Shown one piece after another: positions 23,539 through 44,859 of a DNA stretch of 64,000 bases. The notes beneath the pieces were generated by a model. That model had not been told where the DNA came from and searched no databases. It was given only the letters and a program-made list of their open reading frames with translations. The number at the start of each line of letters is the position of its first letter. Position 1 is the stretch's first letter. The translations under genes were made by a program, and so were the position numbers. Source of the DNA: an uncultured Pseudoxanthomonas sp. (GTDB lineage: Bacteria > Pseudomonadota > Gammaproteobacteria > Xanthomonadales > Xanthomonadaceae); assembly GCA_946479745.1 (NCBI GenBank), contig CAMLGZ010000011.1:40173-104172 (forward strand). The letters run 5' to 3'.

Positions 23539-23553
23539 CCGGATCTCCCTCGC

Positions 23554-25990: not shown

Positions 25991-26949
25991 GCGCACCCGA
26001 TTGCTTCCTTGGCGTGGACGGCGGCGGCACCAAGACGCGCTTCGCATTGATCGATGGCGATGGCCGCCTGCTTGCAGAGGCGCAGCACGGGACGACCTAT
26101 CACCCGCAGGTGGGACTGGACGGCGTTCGCGAAATTCTCCGCGCCGGCATCGAGCAGGTACTGTTGGAGGCGGGCGTGCAAATCAGCGTCATCCGCCATG
26201 CGTTCTTCGGCTTGCCTGCCTACGGCGAAGACAGCGAAGCGACGGCGAAGCTGCAGGCCATTCCGCGCGAGCTGCTGGGCCACGACCGTTACGCCTGCGA
26301 CAACGACATGGTCTGCGGCTGGGCGGGATCGCTGGCCTGTGCGGACGGCATCAACATCGTCGCCGGCACCGGTTCCATCGGCTATGGGCAGCGCCAGGGT
26401 CACGCCGCGCGTTCGGGTGGATGGGGCGAAGCGTTTTCGGACGAGGGCTCGGCGTACTGGATCGCCGCGCAGGGCCTCAACGTCTATTCGCGCATGAGCG
26501 ACGGCCGTCTGCCGAAGGGGCCGTTGCATGCGGTGTTCAACCAGGAACTCGGCCTGGGCAACGATCTGGATATCTGCGCCCGCGTGTATGGCGAGCAAGC
26601 CCTGAGCCGCGGCGACTTCGCCAAGCTTTCCTTGCTGGTGGCCAAGGCGGCACGTCTGGGCGATGCGAACGCGGCGAACATCTACACGCAGGCCGGAGAC
26701 GAGCTGGCCCAGATCGCCGATTCCCTGCGCCGGGCGCTGGACTTTAGTGCCGGCGAAACTGTTCCGCTTTCCTATTCGGGCGGCGCGTTCAGCGCCGGCG
26801 AACTGCTGCTGGCCCCGTTCAAGGAAGCGCTGCATCGTGCCTGCCCGGCATTCGAACTGCGGTCCCCGATACACGAACCGCACTATGGCGCGGCGCTGTA
26901 CGCGGCTAAGCTGTCCCGGCGCTCGATCCTCTCCCGGCAAGGCGGCTAG
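25987..26949 (+). CDS. BadF/BcrA-type amino-sugar kinase (AgaK/NagK-like)
   Basis: The product has 320 residues with the ASKHA ATPase signature: phosphate-1 loop FLGVDGGGTKTRFALID at the N-terminus, catalytic-region CDNDMVCGWAG, and INIVAGTGSIGYG. The family includes N-acetylglucosamine kinases, and GalNAc kinases in aga clusters. It is the last gene of the operon, overlapping agaS by four bases. Phosphorylation of GalNAc or galactosamine at C6 would feed AgaS. If the substrate is GalNAc, a deacetylase (NagA/AgaA) must come from elsewhere, since none is encoded here. Confidence 0.85.
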   Translation: MSAPDCFLGVDGGGTKTRFALIDGDGRLLAEAQHGTTYHPQVGLDGVREILRAGIEQVLLEAGVQISVIRHAFFGLPAYGEDSEATAKLQAIPRELLGHDRYACDNDMVCGWAGSLACADGINIVAGTGSIGYGQRQGHAARSGGWGEAFSDEGSAYWIAAQGLNVYSRMSDGRLPKGPLHAVFNQELGLGNDLDICARVYGEQALSRGDFAKLSLLVAKAARLGDANAANIYTQAGDELAQIADSLRRALDFSAGETVPLSYSGGAFSAGELLLAPFKEALHRACPAFELRSPIHEPHYGAALYAAKLSRRSILSRQGG

Positions 26950-29935: not shown

Positions 29936-30712
29936 CTACTTCCTGTTTACGAGTGTCTGCGCCAGCTGCTGCGCGTAAATGACCTGTTCCGCAGTGAGGC
30001 CATTTGAATAGCGATTAAGCCATTCTTTTGAAAACCGGGACTGTGTGACCTGACTATTGGCGTAGGCATAAGCGTATGCCTTTACCTTATCTCGATCACT
30101 AAAAAGGCCATTCTTGTAGTTCTCTGCCAGGCGCGCATACGCGTCGGGATGGCCTCGATCCGCAGCCATGGTCAGAAATCTGAGGCTATCTCGCTTGTAT
30201 TGCGCAATCAACGCGGGGTCCAGTGCATTCTTTTCTTCGTTGAAAGCAGAAGCTGCAATTGCAGAAAAATCCAGCTGGGCCTGCAGATTCCCCCGCTCGG
30301 CGGCGAACTTGGCCAAATCGTAGGCGGAATACTTGCTATCGAGCGCGGCGCAATCCAGACCAGCAATGCGCGAGTCCGCGAGTTGCTTAGCCTCAGTTTT
30401 GCTCAGATCCTCTGGAATATTCAGATCAGCGTTCGCCGCATGCATGCAGCGAAGGATGGAGTAAGCGTCGGCGTAGGCCTTCTCGGGCGCCATTGTCGAC
30501 GGCACCTCGGCTCCGCTGCGGCTTGCAGAAACCGCGCCACCATGTGGCTGCATCTCACTGGCGTCGGGTGCAGTCTGACCCGCTGTTTGCCCCTCACCCG
30601 GAGCCTGATCAGGCAGCGGCGATTCCGTAGCGGTTCGATCAAGAAGAAAGTAAGCCGCGCCGGCCACCAAAAGTATCCCGGTGCCCAAGACTATCCACTT
30701 CCTTTGTGTCAT
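29936..30712 (-). CDS. Sel1-like repeat protein with N-terminal membrane anchor
   Basis: The product has 258 residues. A single membrane segment (WIVLGTGILLVAGAAYFLL, residues 6-24) is followed by a Pro/Gly-rich linker to about residue 75 and a helical C-terminal domain. That domain has a Sel1-type motif (ADRGHPDAYARLAENYKNG, about 185-205). It is probably anchored in the inner membrane with the domain in the periplasm. The gene is 24 bases upstream of the Gly-rich secreted protein gene, so they form an operon. Its role is unknown. Confidence 0.72.
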   Translation of the reverse strand: MTQRKWIVLGTGILLVAGAAYFLLDRTATESPLPDQAPGEGQTAGQTAPDASEMQPHGGAVSASRSGAEVPSTMAPEKAYADAYSILRCMHAANADLNIPEDLSKTEAKQLADSRIAGLDCAALDSKYSAYDLAKFAAERGNLQAQLDFSAIAASAFNEEKNALDPALIAQYKRDSLRFLTMAADRGHPDAYARLAENYKNGLFSDRDKVKAYAYAYANSQVTQSRFSKEWLNRYSNGLTAEQVIYAQQLAQTLVNRK

Positions 30713-31237: not shown

Positions 31238-32851
31238 CTAAGGCGCAACAACCTCCCCGTCGGTCGAGGGAGCAAACACCAGGTCCTGGTAGTCGTAGCT
31301 GAAATCGGCAAGCGGTGAAACCGGCTTCATGGTCATCCGTGCGACCTTGCCTTCGGCGTCCAGCGCGAAGGTGACGTAAGCAGGTTCGATCGAACTATCG
31401 TCCCATTCGGAGCGGAAAGTGTCGTACTGCCAATGGCTGAGCGTTCCCGCCATATTCGGAGTCTGTTGGAAGTCGATGCGCAACTTGCCCGAGCGCTCCG
31501 TGATTTCAATGGGCCCATACCAGGCATCGGCATAGCGACCCGCGTAGCCCGATGCTGGTAAAGAAGAACGCGATGCCTTGCGGGCGCTCTTTCCGCTGGC
31601 CTGCAGCGCCGCCAGACCGCCATCGAGACGCTGCTTGTACCAGGTATCGAAGGCCGCCACCCAATCGCGCGGCTCGAAGCCCAGGTAATGGTCCAGAAGC
31701 TCGTAGCCCAACCCGCGCATCACGCCTACATCTTCGGAATTTATCTGAAGCGAAATGCCCAGGTTCCGCTCGGGCACCAGCACGATGAAAGTCAGAACTC
31801 CGAAAACGGCGCCACCGTGCTGCACTACTTTGACGCCGCGGTAATCCTGCACGTTCCAGCCCAGCGCATAGCTGGAGAACTGCGGCGTGATGTCGCTGAT
31901 CGGCGCCGGATAGGTATTGATCGGCACCGGTACCTGCGGTGTCCACATCGCCTGTGCGGAAGCTTCGCTATAAAGGCGCTTGCCGTCGCTGTCGGGCAAT
32001 GCGCCATGCGCCAGCTGTATCTGAAGCCAGTGGGCCAGATCGTTGGCGCTGGATGACAGGCCGCCCGCCGGCGCCCCTACCTGCCCCAACCCTTCGCGCT
32101 CGGGCAGCACCTGCTGTGGACCCAACCCGCGCACGCGCGGATCGAGCCGCGCGTGCGGCTGCGCCCGGTTCGGATTGGCGAAGCGGTCCTTCTCATCGCT
32201 GACCGAGCTGTCCATGCCAGCCGGCTTGAACACGCGCTCGCGCATGAAGCTTTCCCAATCCTGTCCGCTGGTTGCGGCGATCACTTCACCGGCGACGATG
32301 TACAGGATGTTGTCGTACGCATAGTTGCTGCGGAAGCTGGTGGCCGGTTTCAGATTGCGCAGCGCGCGAACGATGTCGGTGCGGCTGCGCGAGCTGCGTG
32401 GAATGAAAAGCAGGTCGCCCGCCCCGAGTCCCAGACCGCTGCGATGGACCAGCAGGTCGCGAACAGTTATCTCGCGCGTCACCCAAGGGTCGTACATGCG
32501 GAAGTCGGGCAAGTGATCTATGACTTTGTCGTCCCAGTGCAGCTTGCCTTCGTCCACCAGGATCGCCAGCGCTGCGGCAGTGAAGGCCTTGCCGGTGGAG
32601 CCGGTGGGGAAGAGAGTGTCGGCATCGACGGCTTCGGTTCCACCCAATCTGCGTACGCCATAACCCTTGGCATGCACGATCTTGCCCTGCTCGACGATAG
32701 CGATCGCCATGCCGGGCACGTCGTGATCGCGGATTACCTTGTCTACGTGCGCGTCGAAGTCCGGTGGCGGTGCGGCCGATGCGGCCGCGGCCATCGAAAG
32801 GCCGGTCGCGATGACCAGGACCCGCAACCATTTCGTAGTGAAGACCATCAT
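31238..32851 (-). CDS. Secreted serine hydrolase (beta-lactamase / DD-peptidase fold)
   Basis: The product has 537 residues with a signal peptide (LSMAAAASAAPPP). The catalytic SxxK is S85-T-G-K88 in FPTGSTGKAF, the second motif is Y179-D-N181, and the third is QHGGAVFG. This is the class C beta-lactamase-related family that includes DD-peptidases, D-aminopeptidases and esterases. A C-terminal beta domain of about 100 residues (from YAGRYADAWYGPIEIT) resembles the accessory domain of D-aminopeptidase-like enzymes. It ends the receptor-dgcN-permease operon, 19 bases after the permease. In that setting cleavage of D-amino-acid peptides is likely but inferred. GGGAG precedes two adjacent ATG codons. 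Confidence 0.88.
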   Translation of the reverse strand: MMVFTTKWLRVLVIATGLSMAAAASAAPPPDFDAHVDKVIRDHDVPGMAIAIVEQGKIVHAKGYGVRRLGGTEAVDADTLFPTGSTGKAFTAAALAILVDEGKLHWDDKVIDHLPDFRMYDPWVTREITVRDLLVHRSGLGLGAGDLLFIPRSSRSRTDIVRALRNLKPATSFRSNYAYDNILYIVAGEVIAATSGQDWESFMRERVFKPAGMDSSVSDEKDRFANPNRAQPHARLDPRVRGLGPQQVLPEREGLGQVGAPAGGLSSSANDLAHWLQIQLAHGALPDSDGKRLYSEASAQAMWTPQVPVPINTYPAPISDITPQFSSYALGWNVQDYRGVKVVQHGGAVFGVLTFIVLVPERNLGISLQINSEDVGVMRGLGYELLDHYLGFEPRDWVAAFDTWYKQRLDGGLAALQASGKSARKASRSSLPASGYAGRYADAWYGPIEITERSGKLRIDFQQTPNMAGTLSHWQYDTFRSEWDDSSIEPAYVTFALDAEGKVARMTMKPVSPLADFSYDYQDLVFAPSTDGEVVAP

Positions 32852-32870
32852 GAACTCCCGGATGCGTTTG

Positions 32871-33986
32871 CTAGCGGAAATCAGGGTCGATGCGCTGCGG
32901 GCGCCGCCATAGCAGCCAGACGCCCCAAGTCATCAACGGCAGCACGTACACCGCCAGAAACAGCCAGGTCAGCGTGCCGTAACCCTTGGCGATCAGGTCG
33001 ACCAGACCGACCGCGCTGGCGGCGTACACGGCGAGCAGCATCGCGCCGACTGCGATCGCCGGACGCAAAGCCTGCGGCATCGGCTTCTGCCGCTCTTCGA
33101 AAGCTTTGGCCACCCGTTCGTTGATCGCATGCAGCAGCGCCACGCCGGTATCCACCAGAGTCAGCAGCACCGCAATCTGGAATGCCCATTCGAACCACGG
33201 CGCACGCAGCTTGCCCAACAGGAAGGCCGAAGGCAGTGCTTCGGCGCCGATCTCGCTGTAGTAGCCCATCATGGCGATGTAGAACACCACGCCCGGCAGC
33301 ATGCCCAGCGGCCCGGCGAGCGCGCCGGCGGCAAGCGCCTCGCGGCGGTTGCCCAGATGGCGGATGCAGAACAGAACCGCGGGAATGGTGGCGACGTTGT
33401 AGCCGGCATAGGTGACCCCGGCGGTGAACCAGCCTTCGGCGACGGGAACCGCCGCGAAGTTGGCTTCGATGCGGTCTCCGAATGCGATCACGCTCCAGAC
33501 CAGGAATACGAAGTAGACCAGGTAGAGGTAGCCCACCGACACGGCGAGGAACTTCTCGATCACGGCGCTGCTGTAGACCAGCATCAGTCCGGTGGCGGCG
33601 ATCATGCCCAGCGAACCGGCCAGCTTCGGCAGGCCGAACAAGCTGTGCGCGATCTCGCCAGCCGCCGCGCCCATCACCGCCAGGATGATGATCATCAGCG
33701 CGAAGTAGCCGATTTCGAACAGAAACCAGCCGCGACCGAGCAGCACCTTGAAGAACGAACGATAGTCGTAGGCCCGCGCGACCCGGGCCAGTTCGAAACT
33801 GACCATCAGCACCAGGCTCCACACCAGCATGCTCACCGCCATGCCCAGCAAGCCACCCCACGGACCCGCCGGCAGAAAGAATTCGACCAGTTCGCGTCCT
33901 GTGGCATAGCCGCCCGCGATCACTGCCGCCTGGAAGACGAATCCCGGCAGCAGATAGCGTTGGAACCACGTGGAGGCCGCAGTCAT
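32871..33986 (-). CDS. Inner-membrane permease (YkvI / amino-acid transporter-like)
   Basis: The product has 371 residues with about ten membrane segments. The N-terminus GFVFQAAVIAGGYATGRELVEFF has the unwound-helix glycine pattern of the LeuT/APC fold. I place it with the YkvI-like branch of that superfamily. It starts with ATGA overlapping the stop of a 22-codon frame that itself overlaps dgcN. Position in the operon suggests import of an amino acid, such as D-glutamate, or of an N-acyl amino acid across the inner membrane. Confidence 0.82.
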   Translation of the reverse strand: MTAASTWFQRYLLPGFVFQAAVIAGGYATGRELVEFFLPAGPWGGLLGMAVSMLVWSLVLMVSFELARVARAYDYRSFFKVLLGRGWFLFEIGYFALMIIILAVMGAAAGEIAHSLFGLPKLAGSLGMIAATGLMLVYSSAVIEKFLAVSVGYLYLVYFVFLVWSVIAFGDRIEANFAAVPVAEGWFTAGVTYAGYNVATIPAVLFCIRHLGNRREALAAGALAGPLGMLPGVVFYIAMMGYYSEIGAEALPSAFLLGKLRAPWFEWAFQIAVLLTLVDTGVALLHAINERVAKAFEERQKPMPQALRPAIAVGAMLLAVYAASAVGLVDLIAKGYGTLTWLFLAVYVLPLMTWGVWLLWRRPQRIDPDFR

Positions 33987-34051
33987 GGCGTGGAAGCTCG
34001 CGCGGCGACATGGCGCGGGGCGATGTAGACGTAGTGGTCTGCGAGCTTCAT
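33983..34051 (-). CDS. 22-codon linking frame between dgcN and permease
   Basis: The frame MKLADHYVYIAPRHVAARAS (plus TP) exactly bridges two genes. Its ATG overlaps the dgcN stop (ATGA) and its stop overlaps the permease start (ATGA). It has no recognisable domain. Passing ribosomes would translate it and reach the permease start, so it may serve only as a coupler. A functional micropeptide is possible. Confidence 0.4.
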   Translation of the reverse strand: MKLADHYVYIAPRHVAARASTP

Positions 34052-35091
34052 GTCAGGCAATCCTCCACCAGTTGGTCGAACGCCGCTCCACCGCGTATCG
34101 GATCGGCGACAGTGCAGCCCAGACGCTTGCTCTCGGCCGCGCACAGACTATGCGCCGCAGCCTCGTCCATGTGCGAGGTGTTGAGACTTACGCCCGCGCA
34201 GCGGATGGCCGGTTGGGTGCGTCGCCCGAGCTGCAGCGCCAGCGCGATGGTCTCCTCGATGCTGGGCAACGCAAACTCGGCGTGGCCCAGCACGCGCTCG
34301 CGTCCGGGCTGGTGGCAGACCACCACGACGTGAGGCTGGCTGCCGTGCAACAGTGCCAGCGAGACGCCCGCATAGGCCGGATGAAACAGCGAGCCCTGCC
34401 CTTCGATCACGTCCCAATGATCGTCGTCGGCATCGGGCGAAAGCATTTCCGCAGCTCCAGCGGCAAAGTCGGAGACCACCGCATCCATCGGAATGCCACC
34501 GCCGGCGATCAGGATGCCGGTTTGCCCGCTGGCGCGGAAATCCGCATCGACGCCGCGTTGCACGAACGCCTTCGCGAGCGCCAGAGCGGTGTATTTTTTT
34601 CCCAGTGCGCAGTCGGTGCCTACCGTCAACAGCCTTTTCCCGCTGCGGGGCCGCCCGGTTGCGATTCGAATCCCCGACGGCGGCTGGCGCACATCGATGA
34701 GCCTGCGCCCCAGCAGCGAGGCTGCATCGCGCAGACGCTCTATTTCTCCCATCCGTACATGCATGCCGCTGATGATGTCCAAACCGGCTTCCATCGCCTG
34801 CAGTAAGGGCCCCACCCAGGTATCTGGAATGACGCCGCCGGCGTTGGCCACGCCGATGACCATCGAGCGTGCGCCCTGCGCCGAGGCTTCGGCGGGCGTC
34901 ATCGAAGGCAGCCCCGTGCTCACCGTAGCTGCATCGCAGCGGAACTCTCCAATGCAGCGCTCCGGCGCCCAGTCGCGCAGCCCGAAAGCGGTCTTCGCGT
35001 AGCCCGGTTCGGTGACGTCGCCCAGGAACAACAAGTGCGGGCCCGGCAATGCCGTCAATGCCTGTGGAGTTGGCAAGCGGGTCTGTAGCAT
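34048..35091 (-). CDS. dgcN: DUF1611 protein, DgcN-type D-glutamate N-acetyltransferase candidate
   Basis: The product has 347 residues and covers the full DUF1611 family. It has an N-terminal Rossmann-like domain (HLLFLGDVTEPGYAKTA) and a C-terminal P-loop-like domain (VGTDCALGKKYTALALA, about residue 160). In marine Pseudoalteromonas, a DUF1611 protein (DgcN) N-acetylates D-glutamate and the enolase-type DgcA then racemises the product. A DgcA-type gene lies 6 kb away under the same operator, supporting this reading. A GTG five codons upstream is an alternative start. The gene follows the TonB receptor by 95 bases. Confidence 0.8.
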   Translation of the reverse strand: MLQTRLPTPQALTALPGPHLLFLGDVTEPGYAKTAFGLRDWAPERCIGEFRCDAATVSTGLPSMTPAEASAQGARSMVIGVANAGGVIPDTWVGPLLQAMEAGLDIISGMHVRMGEIERLRDAASLLGRRLIDVRQPPSGIRIATGRPRSGKRLLTVGTDCALGKKYTALALAKAFVQRGVDADFRASGQTGILIAGGGIPMDAVVSDFAAGAAEMLSPDADDDHWDVIEGQGSLFHPAYAGVSLALLHGSQPHVVVVCHQPGRERVLGHAEFALPSIEETIALALQLGRRTQPAIRCAGVSLNTSHMDEAAAHSLCAAESKRLGCTVADPIRGGAAFDQLVEDCLT

Positions 35092-35186
35092 GCTGCGTTC
35101 TTTCACCTGGCGTGTAGAGGGGCATCCGCCGCCCTTGCGCGGCGGCGGATGCGAAGGAGATTGCGCTACGACATGCGCTGCCGCAG

Positions 35187-37547
35187 TCAGAACCGGAAGT
35201 CGAACTCGATGCCGAAGGTGCGCGGCCGGATCGGCACGCCCGCTACTTGCACGTGAGCGCCCGTCACCGCGCTATCGACAGGCGAGAGTGAGGACCACGC
35301 TTTTTCGTTGGTCAGGTTGTTGACGTACACGCGTACTTCCCAACTGCCCTTGCCGATCCCTGCGTACAGATCCAGTGCGCGGTAGCTGTCCAGTTCCACC
35401 GGCATGGTTATCTCGTCCGGGACCAGTACGGTCGATGGGTCTCCGAGGGCAGTGATGCGCTGGCGCTCGGTCGTATCGTTGAGCTGCGAGCCCACACCGC
35501 GCAATGCGGCGCCGACTTGGCCGTTCCACCCACCACTGGTCGTGAAGGCATATTCGGTATTCAACGCCCACGACAGCTTGGGCACGTACGGCATCCGATC
35601 GCCGGCCAGGCCGGTATTGAGGATGACATCGATGCCTTGATCCGGAATCGAAATCACCGTCGGGTCGAAGTCGTTCTTGATGCGGGCCTTGGTGTAGGCG
35701 ACGTTGAGGCCGACGGTCCACTGGTCGGTGGCGCGGAACTGGGCCGACAGTTCGGCACCTTCGCTGGTCGCCTCGCCGCCATTGACCAAGCCGCCGATAC
35801 CGTTGAAAGAGGAGGCTACCTGGATGTCGTCCCAGTCGATGCGGAACGCGGCCAGATCCAGCTGCCCGCGTTGGTCGGCGAACTGCGACTTGAGCCCGAT
35901 CTCGTAGCTGTCCAGCTTGGAGGAGTCCACCGTGGGAGGTACGCCGGGAACCGCCACGTTCGGCCCGCCGGGTTGGTAGCCGGTCGCGACGCGTGCGTAC
36001 AGCATGGTGTCCTTGCTGAGCTTGAACTGCGGACTCAGGCTCCAGGTGAAGACGTCCTCGCTGGATTCGCCGGGCGTGTTGCCCAGCGCCACCAGGAAAC
36101 CTTCGGTTACGTTCTGGCTGAATCGCTGGTCGTTGCGCGCCTGGCGCAGGCCCGCATCGATCTTGAAGCGCTCGCCGAGGCGCCACGAGCCATTGGCGAA
36201 CACCGCAAATTCCTTGTAGGTGCTGGGCAGGGCGAGAAAAGTCAGGGTTGAAAACATTTCGTCGTAGGGCGCCGGCAACGGCGAACCGTCGAGTTGTTCC
36301 AGCCATGCGAACTGCGTCTGCAACGCATCTTCCTTGGTGTAGTAAACGCCCACCAGCCACTCGAAGGGCCCGCCGCTCTTCGAGCTGAGGCGGAATTCCT
36401 GGGTGAGCTTGTCCAGGTCGAAGTCGTACCGCACGAAGGAGCTGCCCGGCTCCGGAAGACCGAGCGACACGTTCGCCAATTCTCCGAACTGAATGGTCGA
36501 ATCCAGCTGGGTCATCGTCTTGGTCTGCGACCAGCCAGTGGCCGATACCAGGTCCGCCCATCCCAAATCCCAATCCAGGCTGAGAGAGGTGAGCGTCAGC
36601 TCCTTGGAAAACGGCTGAGGCTGCCAGGTCCGGTCCACGTAATCGCCGAATAGCGGCTCCAGCGTGTCGGGATCCAGCGCGGTGCCGGCGCGGTCGTCTG
36701 CAGTGATGCGCTGATGCAATGCAGACAGGTTCAGATCGAATGCGTCGCCATCCCAGAACAACGCCGCGCGCGCGCCGACCTGCTCGCTGTCGTTGATGTC
36801 TTCGCGGCCATCGGTGAGGTTGTCGGTGTAACCCGGCAACCCGTTGCGCGCGAAGCTCAACCGAAGCCCCAGGCGATCTTCCTTCAACGGAACGCTAGCG
36901 CCGAAGCGCGCGTTCCATCCATCGCCGCCGTCGGCGACCGATCGCAGACCGAAGCCGAGGCGGAATTCGTCTCCGCTCACTTCGGGCGCGCGCGTCACGT
37001 ATTTGAGCAGCCCGCCGATCGCGCCGGCTCCGTACAACGTGCCTTGGGGCCCGCGCAGCACTTCCACGCGGCTGATGTCGTAGGGCAATACGTCCAGCAT
37101 CAAGCTGTTGGCGCCTTGATAAATGCCGCTGGATCCCACCGGCACCTCGTCGATATAAGTCGCTACGGTGGCGCTGGAAGACATCGCTGAAATGCCGCGC
37201 AGCGACACTGAGGTTTGTCCCGGGCTGCCGTTGTCCTGTACCTGCAAGCCGGGTATCAGGGCGGCGTAATCGGCCAGCGAACTGGCGCCGATGTTCTCCA
37301 GTTGACGCTCGTTGATGACGCTGATGGAAGCGGCGACGTCGCGAATGTTTTCGACACGCTTGTTGGCGGTGACCACCACCCGGTCGAGCGTTGCCGCGCG
37401 TTCGGCGGAAGTGGCGGCCGGCGGTGGATCGGCTTCCGCATTCTCCTGCGCCAGGACGGGGGCCGCTGCCACCCAGGCCAGGGTGCTGGCAATGGCGAGG
37501 GACAAGGGTGAGCGGTACCACGGACGCATGGACTGGAACGCGTTCAT
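35187..37547 (-). CDS. TonB-dependent receptor of the D-amino-acid/peptide regulon
   Basis: The product has 786 residues: signal peptide (ending AAAPVLAQE), TonB box LDRVVVTANK, a plug with IPGLQVQDNGSPGQTSVSLR and VEVLRGPQGTLYGAGAIGG, and a barrel ending FGIEFDFRF. The plug resembles siderophore and small-ligand receptors more than the glycan receptor at 15376-18249. I chose the ATG with GGGAGA upstream, dropping 24 residues of leader. A TTGACA-N16-CATTAT promoter overlapped by a palindrome lies about 100 bases upstream. It heads the operon with dgcN, permease and serine hydrolase. The ligand may be a peptidoglycan fragment or N-acyl-amino acid; this is inference. Confidence 0.92.
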   Translation of the reverse strand: MNAFQSMRPWYRSPLSLAIASTLAWVAAAPVLAQENAEADPPPAATSAERAATLDRVVVTANKRVENIRDVAASISVINERQLENIGASSLADYAALIPGLQVQDNGSPGQTSVSLRGISAMSSSATVATYIDEVPVGSSGIYQGANSLMLDVLPYDISRVEVLRGPQGTLYGAGAIGGLLKYVTRAPEVSGDEFRLGFGLRSVADGGDGWNARFGASVPLKEDRLGLRLSFARNGLPGYTDNLTDGREDINDSEQVGARAALFWDGDAFDLNLSALHQRITADDRAGTALDPDTLEPLFGDYVDRTWQPQPFSKELTLTSLSLDWDLGWADLVSATGWSQTKTMTQLDSTIQFGELANVSLGLPEPGSSFVRYDFDLDKLTQEFRLSSKSGGPFEWLVGVYYTKEDALQTQFAWLEQLDGSPLPAPYDEMFSTLTFLALPSTYKEFAVFANGSWRLGERFKIDAGLRQARNDQRFSQNVTEGFLVALGNTPGESSEDVFTWSLSPQFKLSKDTMLYARVATGYQPGGPNVAVPGVPPTVDSSKLDSYEIGLKSQFADQRGQLDLAAFRIDWDDIQVASSFNGIGGLVNGGEATSEGAELSAQFRATDQWTVGLNVAYTKARIKNDFDPTVISIPDQGIDVILNTGLAGDRMPYVPKLSWALNTEYAFTTSGGWNGQVGAALRGVGSQLNDTTERQRITALGDPSTVLVPDEITMPVELDSYRALDLYAGIGKGSWEVRVYVNNLTNEKAWSSLSPVDSAVTGAHVQVAGVPIRPRTFGIEFDFRF

Positions 37548-37630
37548 CTCTGAATCTCCCGGGACGGCGAATGGGTGGTACGGATGATCGGCCCGGGCTG
37601 TGTGCGCCAATGGCGGCACGCGCCGGTATC

Positions 37631-37668
37631 CTGATTAGGGATAATGATCCTAATCAGAGAATTGTCAA
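37631..37668 (-). promoter_or_regulatory. Promoter with overlapping operator (TonB receptor operon)
   Basis: CTGATTAGG (37631-37639), nine bases and CCTAATCAG (37649-37657) form a perfect inverted repeat. It overlaps a minus-strand promoter: TTGACA (37663-37668), a 16-base spacer and CATTAT (37641-37646). A 28-base block (37641-37668) is identical to 43999-44026 before the second operon. A repressor bound here would block polymerase. Confidence 0.82.
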
Positions 37669-37720
37669 TATATTTGGAAAATATCGCGCTCGGGCTTATC
37701 CGGCCGCAACGGCGCCCGGA

Positions 37721-39427
37721 TCAGTCGGCTTTGGACGCCTGCCATCCCGGCCCGCGCACCACCCGCCCGGGCTTGGCGCCGGTGTGTTCGCCGTCGCGCA
37801 GCACCTGCACGCCATTGATGAAGACATCGCTGACGCCGGTGGCGTACTGCTGCGGCGACTTGTAAGTGGCGTGGTCGGCGATGGTGGCCGGGTCGAACAC
37901 CACCACATCGGCAAAGCAGCCGGGATTGAGGCAACCGCGGTCGCGCAGTTTCCAGTTCGTCGCCGGTAGGCCGGTCAAACGGTGGATGCCCTCTTCCAGC
38001 GGCATCAACTTGCGGTCTCGCACGTAGTGGCCCAGGAATTTGGCGAAGTTTCCGTAGGCGCGCGGATGCGTGCTGGATTTGAGGAAGACGCCTTCGGGCG
38101 CAGAGGATTCGGCGTCCGAACCCAGGCTGGTCCACGGCTGCTTCAACCCCAACTCGACGTTTTCCTCGCTCATCAGGAAATACGCGGCGCCTACGCGCGA
38201 ATCGTCCTCGACGACCAGGTCGATCAGGGTTTCCTCTCCGGACTTGCCGCGTGCTTTGGCCACTTCCGCCAGAGATTTTCCGAGCAACGGCTTCAACTTT
38301 TCGTTCTTGAACTCGATCAACAGCACGCGATCATCCGATCCTGCGAGCAGGCGGATGTTTTCCCAGCTCACGTTGGGATCTTTCATCTCGGCGATCACAC
38401 GCTTGCGGATGGCCGGATCCTTGAGCCGGGCGACCATGGCTTCGTGGCCACCTGCCTGCACCCACGGTGGCAGCCCGGCAGTGAGTCCCGTGGCGCCGGC
38501 GGTGTAGGCATACATATCCGCACTGATCTTTACCCCCTGGTCTCTGGCGGCTTGGATTTTTGCGATCGCCTGGGCCATCTTGGGCCAGTTCTTTTCCCCT
38601 GCCGCTTTCAGGTGATACGCCTCGGCCTGTTGCCCGGTGGCCCGGCCGATGGCGATGGTTTCGTCCACCGCTTCGAGGAAGCGATCGGCCTCACTGCGCA
38701 TATGCGCGATATAGCCGCCGCCGGATTCCGACGCGGCCTGTGCAAGGGCGATCAGTTCGTTGCTGTCGGCGAACGCGGCTGGCGGATAGATCAGGGATCC
38801 GCCTACGCCCAACGCGCCTTCGGCCATCGCCTGCCGCACCAGATCCTGCATGCGCGCCAATTGCGCCGCGCTGGGCTTGACGTCGTCTTCGCCCAACTCG
38901 TGAATGCGCACTGTTGTGGCGCCAACGAACGAAGCGACATTCGGGGTAATGCCGCGCTTTTCCAGGTATTCCAGGTACTCGCCCAGCGTGGTCCATTCGA
39001 TCGGGTAGCGGATGTCGCCCTGCTGCTTCAGTGCATCGGCTTTCATCTTTTCGTTGTAAGGTCCCATCGACCAACCTTCACCGAACACTTCCAGGGTCAC
39101 GCCCTGCTTGGTATCGCTCACTCCGCGCCCATCGGCGATCAGCGATTCGGGGGCCCAGCTCAGCATATTGATGAAGCCCGGTGCGACGGCATGGCCGCGC
39201 GCATCCACGGTACGAGTGGCGACGGCACTGCTGCCGGCCGGCAGCAGTGCGGCAACGCGATCCCCGCGCACGGCCACATCGACCCGTTGCGCTGCAGAGC
39301 CGCTGCCGTCATAGACCACGCCGTTGCGGATCAGCAGGTCGTAGGTCTCACTTGTGGTCCTGGGACCCGGCACGGAAGAACAGCCGGCGAGTGCCAACGC
39401 CAGCAGGGAAATACTCAGTCGATACAT
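37721..39427 (-). CDS. D-aminoacylase-like lipoprotein (N-acyl-D-amino-acid deacylase family)
   Basis: The product has 568 residues. A lipobox (LALALAGC16SS) predicts a lipoprotein. The amidohydrolase fold has YIAHMRSE, AEAYHLKAAG, TSLGSDAESS and STHPRAYGNF, all usual for D-aminoacylases. The first metal motif, normally GFIDxHxH, reads GFINMLSWAPE, so the HxH pair is missing. The true start has AAGGAG upstream; the frame runs on further but without similarity. It is the last gene of the epimerase-POT operon. Deacylation of N-acyl-D-amino acids, such as N-acetyl-D-glutamate, would fit, although the odd metal site leaves the activity open. Confidence 0.85.
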   Translation of the reverse strand: MYRLSISLLALALAGCSSVPGPRTTSETYDLLIRNGVVYDGSGSAAQRVDVAVRGDRVAALLPAGSSAVATRTVDARGHAVAPGFINMLSWAPESLIADGRGVSDTKQGVTLEVFGEGWSMGPYNEKMKADALKQQGDIRYPIEWTTLGEYLEYLEKRGITPNVASFVGATTVRIHELGEDDVKPSAAQLARMQDLVRQAMAEGALGVGGSLIYPPAAFADSNELIALAQAASESGGGYIAHMRSEADRFLEAVDETIAIGRATGQQAEAYHLKAAGEKNWPKMAQAIAKIQAARDQGVKISADMYAYTAGATGLTAGLPPWVQAGGHEAMVARLKDPAIRKRVIAEMKDPNVSWENIRLLAGSDDRVLLIEFKNEKLKPLLGKSLAEVAKARGKSGEETLIDLVVEDDSRVGAAYFLMSEENVELGLKQPWTSLGSDAESSAPEGVFLKSSTHPRAYGNFAKFLGHYVRDRKLMPLEEGIHRLTGLPATNWKLRDRGCLNPGCFADVVVFDPATIADHATYKSPQQYATGVSDVFINGVQVLRDGEHTGAKPGRVVRGPGWQASKAD

Positions 39428-39494
39428 CGGTATGCTCCTTATGGATATCGCAACGGCGGCAGGCATCACGGCAAGACGCCGCGATCGACAAGCC

Positions 39495-40835
39495 TCAACT
39501 ACGGACTTCCTCAAGCTTCCCGCCCTCATTAGCGGACGCGTTTGTTTCGACACGCAGATTACGGCGGGCCGATTCCACATCACGGATGGGGCGATCCAGC
39601 ATCCACAGAACGCACGCGGCCAACAATGCCAGCCCCGACAGCAATACGAAGAATCCGGCGTGACTGGTCCGCGACCACAATGCGCCCACCGCACCGGCCA
39701 GCAGACTGCCGCTGAAGATCGCCAGGAACCATGCCGCGACCGTAGTCGCTCCCAGACGCGGCGGCGCCAGCCGTGCGAAAAGACCCAGGCCGGTCGGCAG
39801 GATATACAGCTCGCCCAGGGTGAGGATGACGAAGAACACCAGCAACCAGGGCCAGCCGACACGCGCGCCACCGGAGAAACCATCCAGCATCGCCAGCAGC
39901 AGATACGCGAGTGCGACGATGACCGCACCGATGGCCATCTTGCGTGCCGGCGATGTCTCGCGGCCGGCATCGGCGCGACGGCGCCAGTGCAACAGCAGCA
40001 GCGGCGTCATGCTGATCACCAGCAAGGGATTCAAGGACTGGAACCAGGTCATCGGAATCACCACGCCGCCCCATGTCCGGTCCACGCCCATGTCGGTCCA
40101 CAGCGGCAAAGTATTGCCGATCTGTTCGTAAGCGCCGCGGAAGATCGTCGCCGCAAGTCCGACACCCAACAGCAGCAGCCAGATCCGGCTCTGGTTGCTT
40201 GCGCGTTCGCCCGCCGCTGTGGACGCACGCACAGTGCGTGTACGGTTTTCCGGCGGAAGATAATCGCGACCGAGCACATAGATGATCAAACCGACGAACA
40301 TGCCGATGCCGGCCGCGCCGAAACCGTAATGCCAGCCATAGACTTCGCCGAGCGTCCCGCAAATCAATGGCGCCATGAAACCCCCGATGTTCAGACCCAC
40401 GTAGTACACGTTATAGGCCCGCCCCCGGCGCGGATCGTCGGCGCGGTACAGGTCATTGATCTGGCTGGGAAGGCTGGGCAGGAACAGGCCGTTGCCGAGC
40501 GCGATGGTTGCCAGCGCAAGGTAGAACATGGGTTCGAACGCCATCATGAAATGGCCCAGCGCCATCACGCTGCCGCCGATGATCACCGCATTGCGCTTGC
40601 CCAGCCAGCGGTCGGCAATGGCGCCGCCCAGGATCGGCGTGAAGTAGGCCATCGCCGTGTACGTGCCGTAGATGAAGGAGGATTTTTCCTGCGCGAACAG
40701 CAACTCCTTGGTCATGTAGTAGACCAGCAGCGTGCGCATGCCGTAGTAGGAGAACAGCTCCCACATGTTGGTCAGGAACAGTATCGTGAGGCCGCGCGGC
40801 TGGCCGAACCAGGTCTTGTCGGCCATTGCGCTCAT
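39495..40835 (-). CDS. POT-family proton-dependent di/tripeptide transporter
   Basis: The product has 446 residues with about 12-14 membrane segments. POT hallmarks are FLTNMWELFSYYGMRTLLVY (the ExxER-like region of helix 1), YTAMAYFTPILGGAIADRWL, and YNVYYVGLNIGGFMAPLICG. Its ATG overlaps the epimerase stop (ATGA). Di- or tripeptide import is the family role; with a dipeptide-epimerase-like neighbour the cargo may be peptidoglycan-derived peptides. The 66-base gap to the deacylase gene has no terminator. Confidence 0.92.
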   Translation of the reverse strand: MSAMADKTWFGQPRGLTILFLTNMWELFSYYGMRTLLVYYMTKELLFAQEKSSFIYGTYTAMAYFTPILGGAIADRWLGKRNAVIIGGSVMALGHFMMAFEPMFYLALATIALGNGLFLPSLPSQINDLYRADDPRRGRAYNVYYVGLNIGGFMAPLICGTLGEVYGWHYGFGAAGIGMFVGLIIYVLGRDYLPPENRTRTVRASTAAGERASNQSRIWLLLLGVGLAATIFRGAYEQIGNTLPLWTDMGVDRTWGGVVIPMTWFQSLNPLLVISMTPLLLLHWRRRADAGRETSPARKMAIGAVIVALAYLLLAMLDGFSGGARVGWPWLLVFFVILTLGELYILPTGLGLFARLAPPRLGATTVAAWFLAIFSGSLLAGAVGALWSRTSHAGFFVLLSGLALLAACVLWMLDRPIRDVESARRNLRVETNASANEGGKLEEVRS

Positions 40836-41845
40836 GCGAGAGCCTTCGGGCCCCAGACTTCGTCGCCGCAGCTGATGTAGCCGTCTTCGTAGCGGACCGA
40901 AGGCGTGCGGTCGGTCTTCAGGAATATCGGCCCATCCAGGTCGACGACATCGCAGAACTGGCCCAGCACGAACGCCGGTGCAGCCGCCAGGCTGGTGCCG
41001 CACATGTTGCCGACCATGACTTTTTTCCCGAGTTCGCGCGCGCGCCGGGCCATCAGCAGGCCCTCGGTGAGACCACCGCATTTGTCGAGCTTTATGTTGA
41101 TGACATCGAACCGGTGGTGGCGCGCTTCGAGCTCGGCCAGATCCAGGATGCTCTCGTCCGCTGCGAACGGCAGTACGCGTTCGATCCCGTCGAGGATGTG
41201 TTCCCGTCCGCGCACGCACGGTTGTTCCAGCAGCGATATTCTTGCCTCGATCAACGCCGGCAACAGCGACGGCAGGGTCGCCGCGTTGTAGCCCTGATTG
41301 GCGTCGACGCCGATCCAGGGTTGCGGGCAACGCGCGCGCACCGCACGCACCCGTGCGCTGTCCAGCTCCGGATCGCCGGTCAGTTTCAGTTTCAATGCGC
41401 GTGCCTGCGAATACGCCGCCGCTCTATCCGCCATTACCGCGGGCTCGTCGGCGCCCACGGTGAAAGTCGTCAGCAGCTTGCTGGTCTTTCCCAGCCCCGC
41501 CAGCTTCCAGACCGGAACGCCGCTGCGTTGCGATTCCAGTTCCCACAACGCGCAGTCGAGTGCGTTGCGCGCGCCCCCGGCAGGCAACAGCGTGCGCAAG
41601 GACTCCCGATCGAGCCCCGCTTCTATGCGCGGCCGTAGAGCTTCGAGCGTGGCGATCATCTTCTCGGGATGATCGTCGTTGTAGTACACGCCCGCCGCTT
41701 CGCCACGCCCGACATGTGGGCCGTCGCGCAGCGTCACCACCGTGGCCGGCATCGCTTCGAACACATGCCCGGCGATACGGAACGGGGCCGACATCGGCAG
41801 CGGTTCGTTGTGCAATTCCAGTTCGACGGACACGGCAGCGGCCAC
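40832..41845 (-). CDS. dgcA: Enolase-superfamily epimerase/racemase (dipeptide epimerase / DgcA type)
   Basis: The product has 337 residues. The muconate-lactonizing branch is shown by LKLKL (K152, K154), VDANQ (Asp181), LLEQP (Glu207), AADES (Asp230, Glu231) and IKLDKCGG (K252, K255), giving two general bases and three metal ligands. Known relatives are L-Ala-D/L-Glu epimerase and the N-acetyl-D-glutamate racemase DgcA. The DUF1611 gene under the same operator favours the DgcA role. I chose a GTG with TTGAGG upstream so that the N-terminal VELELHNEPL strand is kept; the first ATG would remove it. The next gene overlaps its stop. Confidence 0.83.
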   Translation of the reverse strand: MAAAVSVELELHNEPLPMSAPFRIAGHVFEAMPATVVTLRDGPHVGRGEAAGVYYNDDHPEKMIATLEALRPRIEAGLDRESLRTLLPAGGARNALDCALWELESQRSGVPVWKLAGLGKTSKLLTTFTVGADEPAVMADRAAAYSQARALKLKLTGDPELDSARVRAVRARCPQPWIGVDANQGYNAATLPSLLPALIEARISLLEQPCVRGREHILDGIERVLPFAADESILDLAELEARHHRFDVINIKLDKCGGLTEGLLMARRARELGKKVMVGNMCGTSLAAAPAFVLGQFCDVVDLDGPIFLKTDRTPSVRYEDGYISCGDEVWGPKALA

Positions 41846-41874
41846 GCACACCTCAACAGGCTGGGAATCAAGGA

Positions 41875-41902
41875 AACGGCCGGCGAAAAGCCGCCGGCCG
41901 TT
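41875..41902 (-). terminator. GC-rich hairpin between serine hydrolase and epimerase genes
   Basis: AACGGCCGGCG and CGCCGGCCGTT form an 11-bp stem around six bases. On the minus strand only TCCTTG follows, without a T run. It is likely a partial attenuator or mRNA-stabilising hairpin rather than a full terminator. Confidence 0.5.
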
Positions 41903-41907
41903 CTCGG

Positions 41908-43926
41908 TCAGTAGTACGCGCCGTAACCCATCAGATGGTTGGCGAAGCCGATCCAGAGCAGGAACAGGCACGACAGCGCCAGCAGCAAGGCCCACAGCTT
42001 GGCCAGCCAGCGACGGCGTCCACGCAACACGTGCCACGCGTTCCATACGGCGATCGCCGCGCCGACAGGCAGTACTACCGTTGCCAACAGGCGCAGCAAG
42101 TTGATCCACAAGTCGGAACCGGCCCCGGTCATCTCCAGATCGCCGAGCATCGCAACCACGAAGCCCAGGGCTCCGCCGACCGACAGCAACACGCCCAGCG
42201 CAGCGAGCCTGACCAGGCGGTGCGCGCGCGCGTCGGTTCCAGACAACGCATACGCAGCGCCATAGTGGCGGCGAACCAGCGCCGACACGGGCCACGCGAG
42301 CACGGTCAACAGCAACACCGCCAGACTGGCAACCAGCAGCGGTAGCGATAGCGCGCGCCAGGTGGAGAGCCGTTCGAACACCATGATCGGCGCATAGGGC
42401 TCCATGCTGAAACGGGTGACCTTGCCATCGACCACGTCGGCAGCCAGCCGGTCGCTGCCGGCTACGTCCTGCCACAGGTAAGGCGATATCTCGCGCCACT
42501 TCTTCGGTACGCCATTGGCGCCCATCGCCAGCGGCACGCTGATGGTACCGTCCTCGTTCGCCACCACTTTGACCTGGCCCAGCATGTTCACCAGCGATAG
42601 CAGGTTGCTCTGCGGACGCCGGCTGCTGTCGTAATGGCCCACCATCTGCTGCGTGTGCAGCTTGGCCTGTGCTGCGTCCATCGCCGGCGCGCGCACTTTC
42701 GGCCCGGGCAGGTAGCGATCGGCGAAGCCGCGAACCAAGGCGCCGCGGATCACGCCGGTAGCCCCGTCGCGGCCACTGCTGTTCATGGAAACGAAGATGC
42801 CGATACCGTCGTCCAGGAACAGTTCCAGGTCGCTGTGGAAATACATCGTGTCGCCGCCATGGGCGATCGCGCGATGGCCGTTGACGGTGGTTTCGTAGAA
42901 GCCGAGCATCATCCGGTTCAACGGACCGACCGAAGCCTGGCCCGTGGTATGCATCTTCTGCGCGGTTGCAGCGCTGAGGATGCGCGCGTCGCCGTAAGCG
43001 CCGTCCTGCAGGTGCGCCAGCATGAAGCGGCCCATGTCCGCACCCGTGGAGGCAAGACTGCCCGCCGGCGCCAGGCTGATGAACTCGTAGTCCTTGGCCT
43101 TGCCGTCGGAGGCTTTCGTATATCCCTTCGACATCTTGGCAAGCAATGCGGGCGGCAACGGCTGGCTGAAGCTGGAATGGGCCATTCCCAACGGCTGGAA
43201 GATGTGGCGCTGGATGTATACGTCGAACGGTTCGCCTGACACGCGCTGGACGATGTAGCCGGCCAACGCCGTGGCGTAATTGGAATAGGCGGGCGTTGCG
43301 CCCGGCGCATGGATGCGTTCGGGCACCCAGCGTTTCAGCGCCTCTCCCAGGGGCACGATCTCCTCTTTGCGCGAAGTGATCAGGCCGCGGATCTGCTCTT
43401 CCAGTCCGGTGGTATGGGTCATCACCTGGCGCAGCGTCATCGGTTTGCCGTCGGGCGACGGGATCTTGAAATCGAGGTATTTGTTGAGGTCTGCGTCCAG
43501 GTCCAGCTTGCCCTGCTCGACCAGTTGCATGACCGCGGTCCAGGTGAAGAGCTTGGACACCGAACCGGGTCGGAAAAGCGTGCTCGCCGGATCGACCGGA
43601 GTGCGCTTTTCGATATCCGAGTAGCCATAGCCCTTCTGCAACAGCACCTGGCCGTCTTTGACCACCACCACCACCGCGCCGGCGATATCGCCGTTATCCA
43701 GTGCGTAGGGCAGGTAGCCGTCCAACCAGGCTTCGGCATCGGCGCGTGTGAGCTCGGGCGCGACACCGGGAGAGGGAGTTTTGGGAAGCTGGGAAGCGGA
43801 GGGATCCGCCGGCACCGTGGTAGGCGGAACAGCAACCGGGGGCAAAGAGGCCTCTTGCGCCGTCAGTGTCGAGATCAAGCCCATGGCCAACAGGCAGCCG
43901 CACAACGTGAACGGAATTACGCGCAT
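41908..43926 (-). CDS. Serine hydrolase (DD-peptidase/esterase fold) with C-terminal membrane domain
   Basis: The product has 672 residues. After a signal peptide (CLLAMGLISTLTAQ) come a Pro-rich linker and a beta-lactamase-related domain with S122-V-S-K125, Y214-S-N216 and AHGGDT. From about residue 525 four or five membrane helices follow (LSLPLLVASLAVLLLTVLAW, LAALGVLLSVGGALGF and others), so the enzyme faces the periplasm on a membrane base. GGAG lies 8 bases before the ATG. It heads the operon with the epimerase, POT transporter and deacylase, under the palindromic operator at 43988-44015. Trimming of D-amino-acid peptides is a fair inference. Confidence 0.88.
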   Translation of the reverse strand: MRVIPFTLCGCLLAMGLISTLTAQEASLPPVAVPPTTVPADPSASQLPKTPSPGVAPELTRADAEAWLDGYLPYALDNGDIAGAVVVVVKDGQVLLQKGYGYSDIEKRTPVDPASTLFRPGSVSKLFTWTAVMQLVEQGKLDLDADLNKYLDFKIPSPDGKPMTLRQVMTHTTGLEEQIRGLITSRKEEIVPLGEALKRWVPERIHAPGATPAYSNYATALAGYIVQRVSGEPFDVYIQRHIFQPLGMAHSSFSQPLPPALLAKMSKGYTKASDGKAKDYEFISLAPAGSLASTGADMGRFMLAHLQDGAYGDARILSAATAQKMHTTGQASVGPLNRMMLGFYETTVNGHRAIAHGGDTMYFHSDLELFLDDGIGIFVSMNSSGRDGATGVIRGALVRGFADRYLPGPKVRAPAMDAAQAKLHTQQMVGHYDSSRRPQSNLLSLVNMLGQVKVVANEDGTISVPLAMGANGVPKKWREISPYLWQDVAGSDRLAADVVDGKVTRFSMEPYAPIMVFERLSTWRALSLPLLVASLAVLLLTVLAWPVSALVRRHYGAAYALSGTDARAHRLVRLAALGVLLSVGGALGFVVAMLGDLEMTGAGSDLWINLLRLLATVVLPVGAAIAVWNAWHVLRGRRRWLAKLWALLLALSCLFLLWIGFANHLMGYGAYY

Positions 43927-43987
43927 CGCATAGTCTCCGGAGGTGGATAGGCACGCCTTGGTACTACTTGGGCGGATCGATTTTATC

Positions 43988-44026
43988 CTGATTCGGCAAT
44001 AATGATCCTAATCAGAGAATTGTCAA
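43988..44026 (-). promoter_or_regulatory. Promoter with overlapping operator (serine hydrolase/epimerase operon)
   Basis: CTGATTCGG (43988-43996), ten bases and CCTAATCAG (44007-44015) form the second copy of the palindrome. The minus-strand promoter is TTGACA (44021-44026), 16 bases, CATTAT (43999-44004). The 28-base block 43999-44026 is identical to the one before the TonB receptor. Confidence 0.82.
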
Positions 44027-44090
44027 CCTGCCGAAAGTACTCCCTTCCCGCCTTGTATGGCCATTTGCCGCCGCCATTTCCCTAGAACGC

Positions 44091-44118
44091 CTGCTGAGGC
44101 GATGATGATCCTGCTCAG
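44091..44118. promoter_or_regulatory. Third operator copy, upstream of the regulator gene
   Basis: CTGCTGAGG (44091-44099), ten bases and CCTGCTCAG (44110-44118) give a variant of the same palindrome, 46 bases before the regulator start. Autoregulation by the XRE-cupin protein is likely. Confidence 0.65.
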
Positions 44119-44163
44119 GACATTTCTACAATTGGGCGTACTCACTCGGGAGACCAGGCAAGG

Positions 44164-44859
44164 ATGACTTCGCAACACCCCACCATCGGCGGACTGCTGC
44201 GCTCGCTCCGCGCCCGCAAGGGCTGGACGCTCAAGCAGATGAGCCAGCATTCCGGCATTCCGCTTTCCACCCTTTCCAAGGTGGAACACGACCGCCTGAC
44301 GCTCACTTACGACAAGTTGCTGCAGCTCAGCCAGCGTTTGAACCTGCGCATGTCCGAGCTGTTCGCCGAACAGGACGATGTGCCCGAGCCGGCAGTGACC
44401 GCCCGCCGCAGCATCGGTCGTATCGAAGACGCGATCCGCGTCAATACGCCCAACTACGACTATTACTACCTATGCCCGGAACTGCGCCGCAAACGCATGA
44501 TCCCGGTACTGACCCGCGTGCGCGCCAAGACCATCGAGGAATTCGGCGAACTCGTGCACCACTCCGGCGAGGAGTACATCCACGTCCTCGAAGGACGCAT
44601 GGAAGTGCATACCGAGTTCTACGACCCCATCGTCCTGGAAGCCGGCCAATCGGTGTACATCGATTCCAACATGGGCCACGCCTACATCGCGGCCGAAGGT
44701 TGCGATGAGGTGCTATTGCTGGGCGTGTGCTCGAGCTCGGACGAGCAGCTGATGGAATCGTTGATGACGCTGCATGGGGAAGAGACGATTGCCCAGCGTG
44801 CTCAAGGAGAATCGGTGGCCACGCGGACAGCGGTCAAAGGCAAGAAAGCTTTGCGTTGA
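44164..44859 (+). CDS. XRE-type HTH regulator with C-terminal cupin domain
   Basis: The product has 231 residues. An N-terminal helix-turn-helix (LKQMSQHSGIPLSTLSKVEH, about 24-43) is joined to a cupin domain (HHSGEEYIHVLEGRMEVHTE, about 138-157). Such XRE-cupin proteins often control amino-acid, polyamine or peptide catabolism and sense a small ligand in the cupin. It is divergent from the serine hydrolase/epimerase operon. Three copies of one palindrome, before itself and the two operons, mark it as the likely controller of the regulon. The ligand is unknown; a D-amino acid or peptide would fit. Confidence 0.9.
   Translation: MTSQHPTIGGLLRSLRARKGWTLKQMSQHSGIPLSTLSKVEHDRLTLTYDKLLQLSQRLNLRMSELFAEQDDVPEPAVTARRSIGRIEDAIRVNTPNYDYYYLCPELRRKRMIPVLTRVRAKTIEEFGELVHHSGEEYIHVLEGRMEVHTEFYDPIVLEAGQSVYIDSNMGHAYIAAEGCDEVLLLGVCSSSDEQLMESLMTLHGEETIAQRAQGESVATRTAVKGKKALR

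Follow-up and report, generated by a model that had tools for sequence, protein, structure and literature searches.

A candidate tandem-operator regulon for the use of D-residue peptides in Pseudoxanthomonas and its relatives

We analysed a stretch of 64,000 nucleotides (hereafter the window) from an uncultured Pseudoxanthomonas sp. (assembly GCA_946479745.1, contig CAMLGZ010000011.1, positions 40,173 to 104,172 of the forward strand), in which two minus-strand operons are accompanied by a divergent gene for an XRE-cupin regulator. We read the two operons and the regulator gene as one repressor-controlled regulon that would import and catabolise peptides with D-residues, and whose DgcN-like and DgcA-like enzyme pair is probably not specific for glutamate; we give this reading a probability of roughly two in three. 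The gene identities in an initial annotation of this DNA stood, and several gene starts were corrected (marked below). The features, in window coordinates, are:

31238..32851, minus: SH2, second S12-family serine hydrolase, with DUF3471
32871..33986, minus: permease that we take to be YkvI-like, 8 hydrophobic segments at the threshold used
34048..35091, minus: DgcN-like DUF1611 protein of a separate subfamily (start corrected)
35187..37547, minus: TonB-dependent outer-membrane receptor (start corrected to 37547)
37630..37658: operator 1, before the TonB-receptor operon; units CCTGATTAGG (37630-37639) and CCTAATCAGA (37649-37658), starts 19 base pairs (bp) apart
37641..37668, minus: promoter 1; -35 box TTGACA 37668-37663, -10 box CATTAT 37646-37641, both assigned by eye from the consensus
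37721..39427, minus: D-aminoacylase-like amidohydrolase lipoprotein with altered metal ligands (start corrected)
39495..40835, minus: POT-family oligopeptide:proton symporter (start corrected); 281.9 bits against TIGR00924, above the cut-off of 130.2
40832..41845, minus: DgcA-like epimerase/racemase of the enolase superfamily with the cluster-type loops IAGHVF and GVYY (start corrected)
41908..43926, minus: SH1, S12-family serine hydrolase; hydrophobic, signal-peptide-like N-terminus and four C-terminal hydrophobic segments
43987..44016: operator 2, before the S12 hydrolase-DgcA-POT-lipoprotein operon; units CCTGATTCGG (43987-43996) and CCTAATCAGA (44007-44016), starts 20 bp apart
43999..44026, minus: promoter 2, its 28 bp identical to promoter 1; -35 box 44026-44021, -10 box 44004-43999
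44090..44119: operator 3, before the regulator gene; units CCTGCTGAGG and CCTGCTCAGG, starts 20 bp apart
44164..44859, plus: XRE-cupin regulator, with helix-turn-helix (HTH) and cupin domains

Operators, promoters and the XRE-cupin regulator

The operator unit is a 10-bp palindrome, CCTGATCAGG in its ideal form, which occurs twice at each of the three sites with starts 19 or 20 bp apart. The initial annotation had described these sites as an inverted repeat, and each of the forms it gave is present: CTGATTAGG-N9-CCTAATCAG lies exactly at 37631-37657 and is the sole match in the 64 kb with at most three mismatches (100 shuffles gave none), CTGATTCGG-N10-CCTAATCAG lies at 43988 and CTGCTGAGG-N10-CCTGCTCAG at 44091. 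That inverted repeat is the tandem pair of units read from outside, and we have dropped the single repeat with a 9-base spacer in favour of tandem palindromes because the spacing varies between 19 and 20 bp and because the regulator site of genome G108, described below, is a lone unit. With up to two mismatches the window contains 51 units, of which exactly three pairs stand 19 or 20 bp apart, these being the three sites; when the window was shuffled in 2-base blocks (n = 60), 59 shuffles held no such pair and one held a single pair. We also collected 80 loci through the regulator (the best 80 of 175, 1.53 Mb in total), and these have 15 pairs at 19 bp and 19 at 20 bp, where about 0.95 are expected per distance, and at most 9 pairs at each of the remaining distances up to 60 bp. 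A perfect lone CCTGATCAGG at 30604-30613, inside an open reading frame (29936-30712, minus) of no Pfam family and 0.6 kb past the end of SH2, has no partner unit and was treated as chance.

The 28-base block that had been reported, ATAATGATCCTAATCAGAGAATTGTCAA, is found unchanged at 37641 and at 43999, and on the minus strand reads TTGACA, 16 bases, CATTAT. At sites 1 and 2 the right unit sits between the -35 and -10 boxes and the left unit immediately downstream of the -10 box, which bears out the earlier statement that the operator covers the promoter. Because of this placement the operator is best read as a repressor site. A promoter profile with a score above 28 gave 126 promoters, two in the window and 124 in 75 of the 80 loci. 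Described across these 126, the right unit begins with CC and ends with GA, and the -35 box contains GTCAA, all with little or no variation; the left unit, taken at its best position where at least 7 of 10 bases match, lies at 19 bp in 31 promoters, at 20 bp in 56 and at other distances in 6. The gene that follows the promoter in the loci is SH1 (70 of 124), the TonB receptor (42), an M19 dipeptidase, entered directly (8), DgcN (2) or POT (1), and one promoter near a contig end precedes no recognised gene.

Since the 80 loci had been picked by their regulator, whole genomes were used for an independent test. Twelve genomes were scanned with the promoter pattern at up to two mismatches: 19 matches were found in 11 genomes, all within cluster loci, and the reversed control gave none; a stricter tandem pattern gave 7 matches in 6 of the 12, again all within cluster loci. 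A second set comprised 149 genomes of the family of G001, searched for the regulator at E <= 1e-40. The regulator is found in 27 of them and the promoter pattern in 21; a regulator identity of 71% or more picks out precisely the same 21 genomes, and the pattern is absent from all 122 genomes with no regulator match. Within about 7 kb of the regulator lie 35 of the 37 pattern matches. G108 has the remaining two: in this genome the cluster (L091) and the regulator (L092) lie on separate contigs, and a perfect CCTGATCAGG precedes the regulator's start by about 45 bp. This co-occurrence in 21 of 21 genomes, together with the separation in G108, argues for a link between regulator and site rather than mere neighbourhood. 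We regard the connection of operator, promoter and regulator as very probable and well supported by these comparisons, and the idea of one regulon under the XRE-cupin protein, put forward before, gains from the conservation, the co-occurrence and the dispersed G108 arrangement. At the stringency used, at which weaker sites would escape, neither the 12 nor the 149 genomes revealed a wider regulon elsewhere. Operator 3 makes it probable that the regulator gene is also under its own control.

Several observations were made around regulator relatives. In L093, L094 and L096 (genomes G149, G101 and G074) the relatives are 65-66% identical; the cluster genes were not found in the stretch examined, and near-operator sequences, TCCTGATCGGAGAATTAT and TCCTGATTGGAGAATTG, are no more than about 0.6 kb away from these relatives. 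G149 has an additional regulator paralogue of 42% identity adjoining an S12 hydrolase (L095). Two contigs binned as Chthoniobacterales of the Verrucomicrobiota (L047, L054) carry the same cluster with regulators 76-78% identical, and represent either a recent transfer or misbinned Xanthomonad DNA. A Steroidobacter metagenome-assembled genome (L050, 406-6266) has DgcN, DgcA, POT, SH1 and the regulator compactly on one strand. In two sphingomonads a protein of the penicillin-amidase family lies just past the regulator (L056, 10757-13117; L063, 10807-13281), assigned by Pfam scan for L056 and by blastp grouping with the L056 protein for L063.

The DgcN-like and DgcA-like pair

The initial annotation had placed the pair on the DgcN-DgcA route for D-glutamate, and this assignment was not supported: the two proteins fall below both family cut-offs, stand on separate branches and have lost conserved loop arginines. 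The DgcN-like protein scores 444.1 bits against the NF041892 equivalog (cut-off 480), close to its counterparts in G001 (439.3) and G008 (439.7), while DgcN matches over the cut-off score 505-567. Against NF042940 (cut-off 400) the DgcA-like protein scores 339.6 and its counterparts in L059, L014 and L051 score 358.6, 342.4 and 376.2, as against 472-499 bits for five canonical DgcA proteins. Locus L001 comes from genome G001, L059 from G008, and L105, L113 and L147 from G175. In the DgcA tree a single branch (support 100/99) separates 74 cluster proteins from 36 others. In the DgcN tree 68 of 69 cluster proteins form one branch (98/95), the protein of L050 is unplaced (all cluster proteins including it form one group in 14% of bootstrap trees), 40 others form another (96/100; 37 over the cut-off plus L105, L106 and L113), and three distant DUF1611 rows stand apart. 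Gene order differs as well. Canonical dgcN has dgcA as its neighbour in 37 of 38 short loci around over-cut-off matches, the exception lying at a contig end, whereas the cluster genes are split over two operons that share the operator. G008 encodes a canonical DgcN (513.7 bits) alongside the cluster copy.

The catalytic residues of DgcA (K155, K157, D184, E210, D233, K255 and D305-L-D307), whose roles we presume from the dipeptide epimerase/N-acyl racemase group, are conserved, at the thresholds used, both in the cluster proteins (74) and in the others (36); numbers refer to a trimmed sequence beginning EVCVAAAV, +3 relative to the start at 41845. The loops differ. Residue 29 is Gly in 74 of 74 cluster proteins and Arg in 31 of 36 others, residue 32 is Phe in 74 of 74 and Arg or Lys in 30 of 36, and residue 58 is Tyr in 74 of 74 and Arg in 34 of 36. 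The L-Ala-D/L-Glu epimerase of E. coli (1jpd) resembles the DgcA-like protein in its fold, KxK motif, acidic metal ligands and DLD motif; it is 34% identical, and its loops IARGSR and PYPRYGE put Arg at all three places where the cluster enzyme has Gly, Phe and Tyr. In the B. subtilis epimerase Arg24, the equivalent of R29, binds the glutamate side chain. The DgcN-like proteins of the cluster differ as well, with A47 in 69 of 69 and L273 in 67 of 69, where the others have Arg in 39 and 37 of 40 and the solved relative 7xrj has Arg at both. Against the L-Ala-D/L-Glu epimerase family (PRK15129, NF011708) the DgcA-like protein scores 200.6, below the cut-off of 343; its structural model has a mean predicted local distance difference test score (pLDDT) of 92.3, lower in the two loops just described, with 4gfi and 1jpd as closest folds. 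Taken together, these residues suggest that recognition of the glutamate type has probably been lost and that the pair works on a different D-amino acid or on a dipeptide, a specificity other than glutamate being on balance the more probable one. Dipeptide epimerases of other specificities are known (PMC13338154; titles of PDB entries). Because the D-glutamate route is unsupported for the pair, growth on D-glutamate, which had been suggested as a check, may be the wrong test.

Two DgcA-like proteins of G175 (L105, L113) also have TonB-receptor and S12 genes close by and lack the operator. An operator-free relative of the cluster in that genome (L147, 2217-11889) consists of D-aminoacylase-like, TonB-receptor, S12 hydrolase, DgcA (with cluster-type loops) and DgcN genes in one direction.

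Hydrolases, transporters and the likely substrate

SH1 has the motifs SVSK, YSN and HGG, the roles of which we take as given for the family. Its closest solved relative is 2qmi (100 bits), that is Pab87, an enzyme reported to degrade D-amino-acid peptides, whose gene adjoins those of a D-aminoacylase and a dipeptide transporter (PMC2651629). Class C beta-lactamase was considered and rejected for both hydrolases (NF033085, cut-off 415; SH2 90.9 bits, SH1 87.4), as was a siderophore receptor for the TonB protein (TIGR01783, 152 against a cut-off of 223.5). The permease has no match in Pfam or NCBIfam. The lipoprotein matches 1rjp (246 bits) and 3gip (222 bits) by phmmer and scores 186.8 against NF006560, the D-aminoacylase / N-acyl-D-Glu deacylase group, below the cut-off of 340. 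The zinc Cys of the D-aminoacylases falls in an alignment gap that adjoins a conserved glutamate, and we therefore discarded the idea that glutamate replaces it; the remaining His and Asp are kept, and the altered residues are the same in 28 of 28 aligned rows at the places shown. An assignment as oxidised-chitin deacetylase (OngB) was set aside since the match is weaker than to D-aminoacylase and histidines reported to be essential there are missing. The ligand roles in D-aminoacylases follow PMC12017989.

Gene content was counted by tblastn (> 60 bits) in the 71 loci whose left flank extends over the full 10 kb; the counts are limited to the stretch examined in each locus, and the SH2 gene and others often lie outside it. 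SH1 is present in 69, DgcA and DgcN in 67 each, the TonB receptor in 66, POT in 46, the YkvI-like permease in 40 and a D-aminoacylase-like protein in 29. An SH2 query matches in 67 loci and is distinct from SH1 in only 31. Two functions appear to be exchanged. The D-aminoacylase-like lipoprotein (> 50% identity, omitting three matches of at most 38%) occurs in 26 loci and an M19 dipeptidase in 15, and no locus has both. For the transporters, 46 loci have POT, 8 have a DUF819 membrane protein, none has the two together and 17 have neither. Among the 15 M19 genes, 12 are at least 68% identical to one of three M19 queries (three being the queries themselves) and 3 are weak matches of about 35%. 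M19 dipeptidases accept D-residues on the C-terminal side. The exchange of D-aminoacylase-like protein for M19 and the kinship of SH1 to Pab87 thus support a peptide with D-residues as substrate, which this genomic context makes likely; on this point the initial proposal of a wider D-amino-acid peptide system fared well.

In the mechanism that we propose, the XRE-cupin protein would sit, when no inducer is present, on the tandem units over both operon promoters and before its own gene and block RNA polymerase, until a ligand of the cupin domain, probably a pathway product, lifts repression. The TonB receptor would then import a peptide or conjugate with D-residues. Its cleavage in the periplasm may fall to the S12 hydrolases together with the D-aminoacylase-like lipoprotein, whose place an M19 dipeptidase takes in other species. 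The small products would enter the cell through POT (or DUF819) and the YkvI-like permease. There the DgcN-like and DgcA-like enzymes could either N-acylate the D-amino acid and racemise it or act as epimerases on a dipeptide, and so open the way into metabolism; the N-acetyl route, if used, would need a further enzyme for the final deacetylation.

Alternative readings and known systems

The cluster could instead run the D-glutamate route itself, with DgcN acetylating D-glutamate, DgcA racemising N-acetyl-D-glutamate and the other proteins supplying D-glutamate peptides such as L-Ala-D-Glu of the cell wall. We hold this to be unlikely, even though the nearest families are DgcN and DgcA, the DgcA catalytic residues and DLD motif are kept, the fold is nearest to 4gfi and 1jpd, and two proteins of the same loop type lie just above the DgcA cut-off. 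The window proteins themselves score under both equivalog cut-offs on separate branches, three positively charged loop residues are lost in every one of 74 cluster proteins, and G008, though not G001, already has a canonical DgcN. Moreover, none of the nine cluster proteins is a murein-peptide enzyme of the MpaA, NlpC/P60 or LdcA type.

Fainter is the chance that the system mainly destroys or consumes D-residue peptide antibiotics of non-ribosomal origin, with catabolism as a by-product. The S12 hydrolases have matches to the alkaline D-peptidase 4y7p and, for SH2, to ClbP structures, and a D-stereospecific peptidase hydrolysing gramicidin A has been reported (PMC9541196). Yet the sharing of one operator by an outer-membrane importer and enzymes of amino-acid catabolism suggests feeding, and no protein among the nine resembles an efflux pump. 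Least probable of all, and by our estimate very improbable, is that another factor binds the conserved block, a strong promoter in this reading, and the XRE-cupin protein is merely a neighbour. The -35 box is indeed among the most invariant bases; against this, the unit is found again at site 3 and upstream of the regulator that stands apart in G108, and the pattern co-occurs exactly with regulators at least 71% identical.

A number of points weigh against the D-peptide regulon that we favour. As to regulation, the co-occurrence of genes in the 80 loci is not independent, the regulator being the basis of choice, and the promoters were gathered with a profile trained on those same promoters, so that the base and spacing figures are descriptive and no test. 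Five of the 80 loci lack a promoter that exceeds the score threshold, and two or more are present in 49; the tandem pair at site 3 beats shuffles (p <= 0.05) in only 24 of 64 loci (the window is one of them), against a chance expectation of about 3; and six family genomes with remoter regulator homologues (40-67% identity) lack the pattern. As to substrate, L105 (405.9) and L113 (410.3) pass the DgcA cut-off despite cluster-type loops, and the cut-off alone therefore cannot split the two loop types, while G001 has the cluster DgcN and no second, canonical one. S12 hydrolases are a diverse family. The lipoprotein lacks the HxH motif of D-aminoacylases (their residues His-Thr-His align with its LSW) and their zinc Cys, which makes its activity uncertain; 30 of 71 loci have neither a D-aminoacylase-like protein nor M19 within the stretch examined; and none of the proteins of the window's cluster was recognised as a deacetylase of an N-acetyl-L-amino acid.

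The regulated use of D-peptides and D-amino acids is already known in outline. D-amino acids from cell walls and peptide antibiotics form a large and slowly degraded nitrogen pool, and to our knowledge the uptake of D-residue peptides across the Gram-negative outer membrane has been little studied. The DgcN-DgcA pathway for D-glutamate in marine bacteria is reportedly the subject of a 2023 paper in the ISME Journal, and its regulator is DgcR. The present cluster is akin to it in having homologous DUF1611 and enolase-superfamily proteins with the catalytic residues kept, but differs in that the two genes, neighbours there, are divided between operons, belong to separate subfamilies without the conserved arginines, probably answer to an XRE-cupin protein rather than DgcR, and are joined to a receptor, hydrolases and transporters. 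Regulators of the PuuR type share the HTH and cupin domains, but PuuR was rejected for the regulator here (NF007408, 43.5 bits against a cut-off of 211). The pathway of the marine bacteria is treated in PMC10845958 and PMC11747546. The Pab87 (CubicO) locus of Pyrococcus abyssi likewise sets an S12 D-peptide peptidase beside D-aminoacylase and dipeptide transporter genes; it is archaeal, with an ABC instead of a POT transporter, and the part of its report available (PMC2651629) makes no mention of a TonB receptor, a DgcN/DgcA-like pair or the operator. Among the literature matches listed (titles, starts of abstracts and passages, with most subscription papers outside this scope) we did not recognise the cluster as described, nor find a description of the operator, its regulator, the coupling to a receptor or the enzyme subfamily; one paper brings DgcN, DgcA and glutamate together.

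What emerges is a defined regulon with an operator that a single gel shift could test, and a pair of enzymes in which the loop residues point to a substrate other than D-glutamate. Such operator-controlled genes probably allow soil and water bacteria to import D-amino-acid peptides and feed on them. More tentatively, and at somewhat less than even odds, the acetylate-and-racemise route for D-glutamate may be one case of a broader strategy, in which a separate DgcN/DgcA subfamily, an XRE-cupin repressor, a TonB receptor, S12 D-peptidases and an exchangeable D-dipeptidase give Xanthomonadaceae, Steroidobacteraceae and sphingomonads access to D-residue peptides, and to further D-amino acids that are probably neutral or aromatic, as nutrients.

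Elsewhere in the window, 4509-12551 holds a frame of 2680 codons with apparent long internal repeats, which show as antisense frames of regular length (five with 107 codons, three with 115). At 20516-26949 lie genes for a GH31/melibiase-like hydrolase, an SIS-domain protein and a BadF-type kinase, possibly a neighbouring amino-sugar operon.

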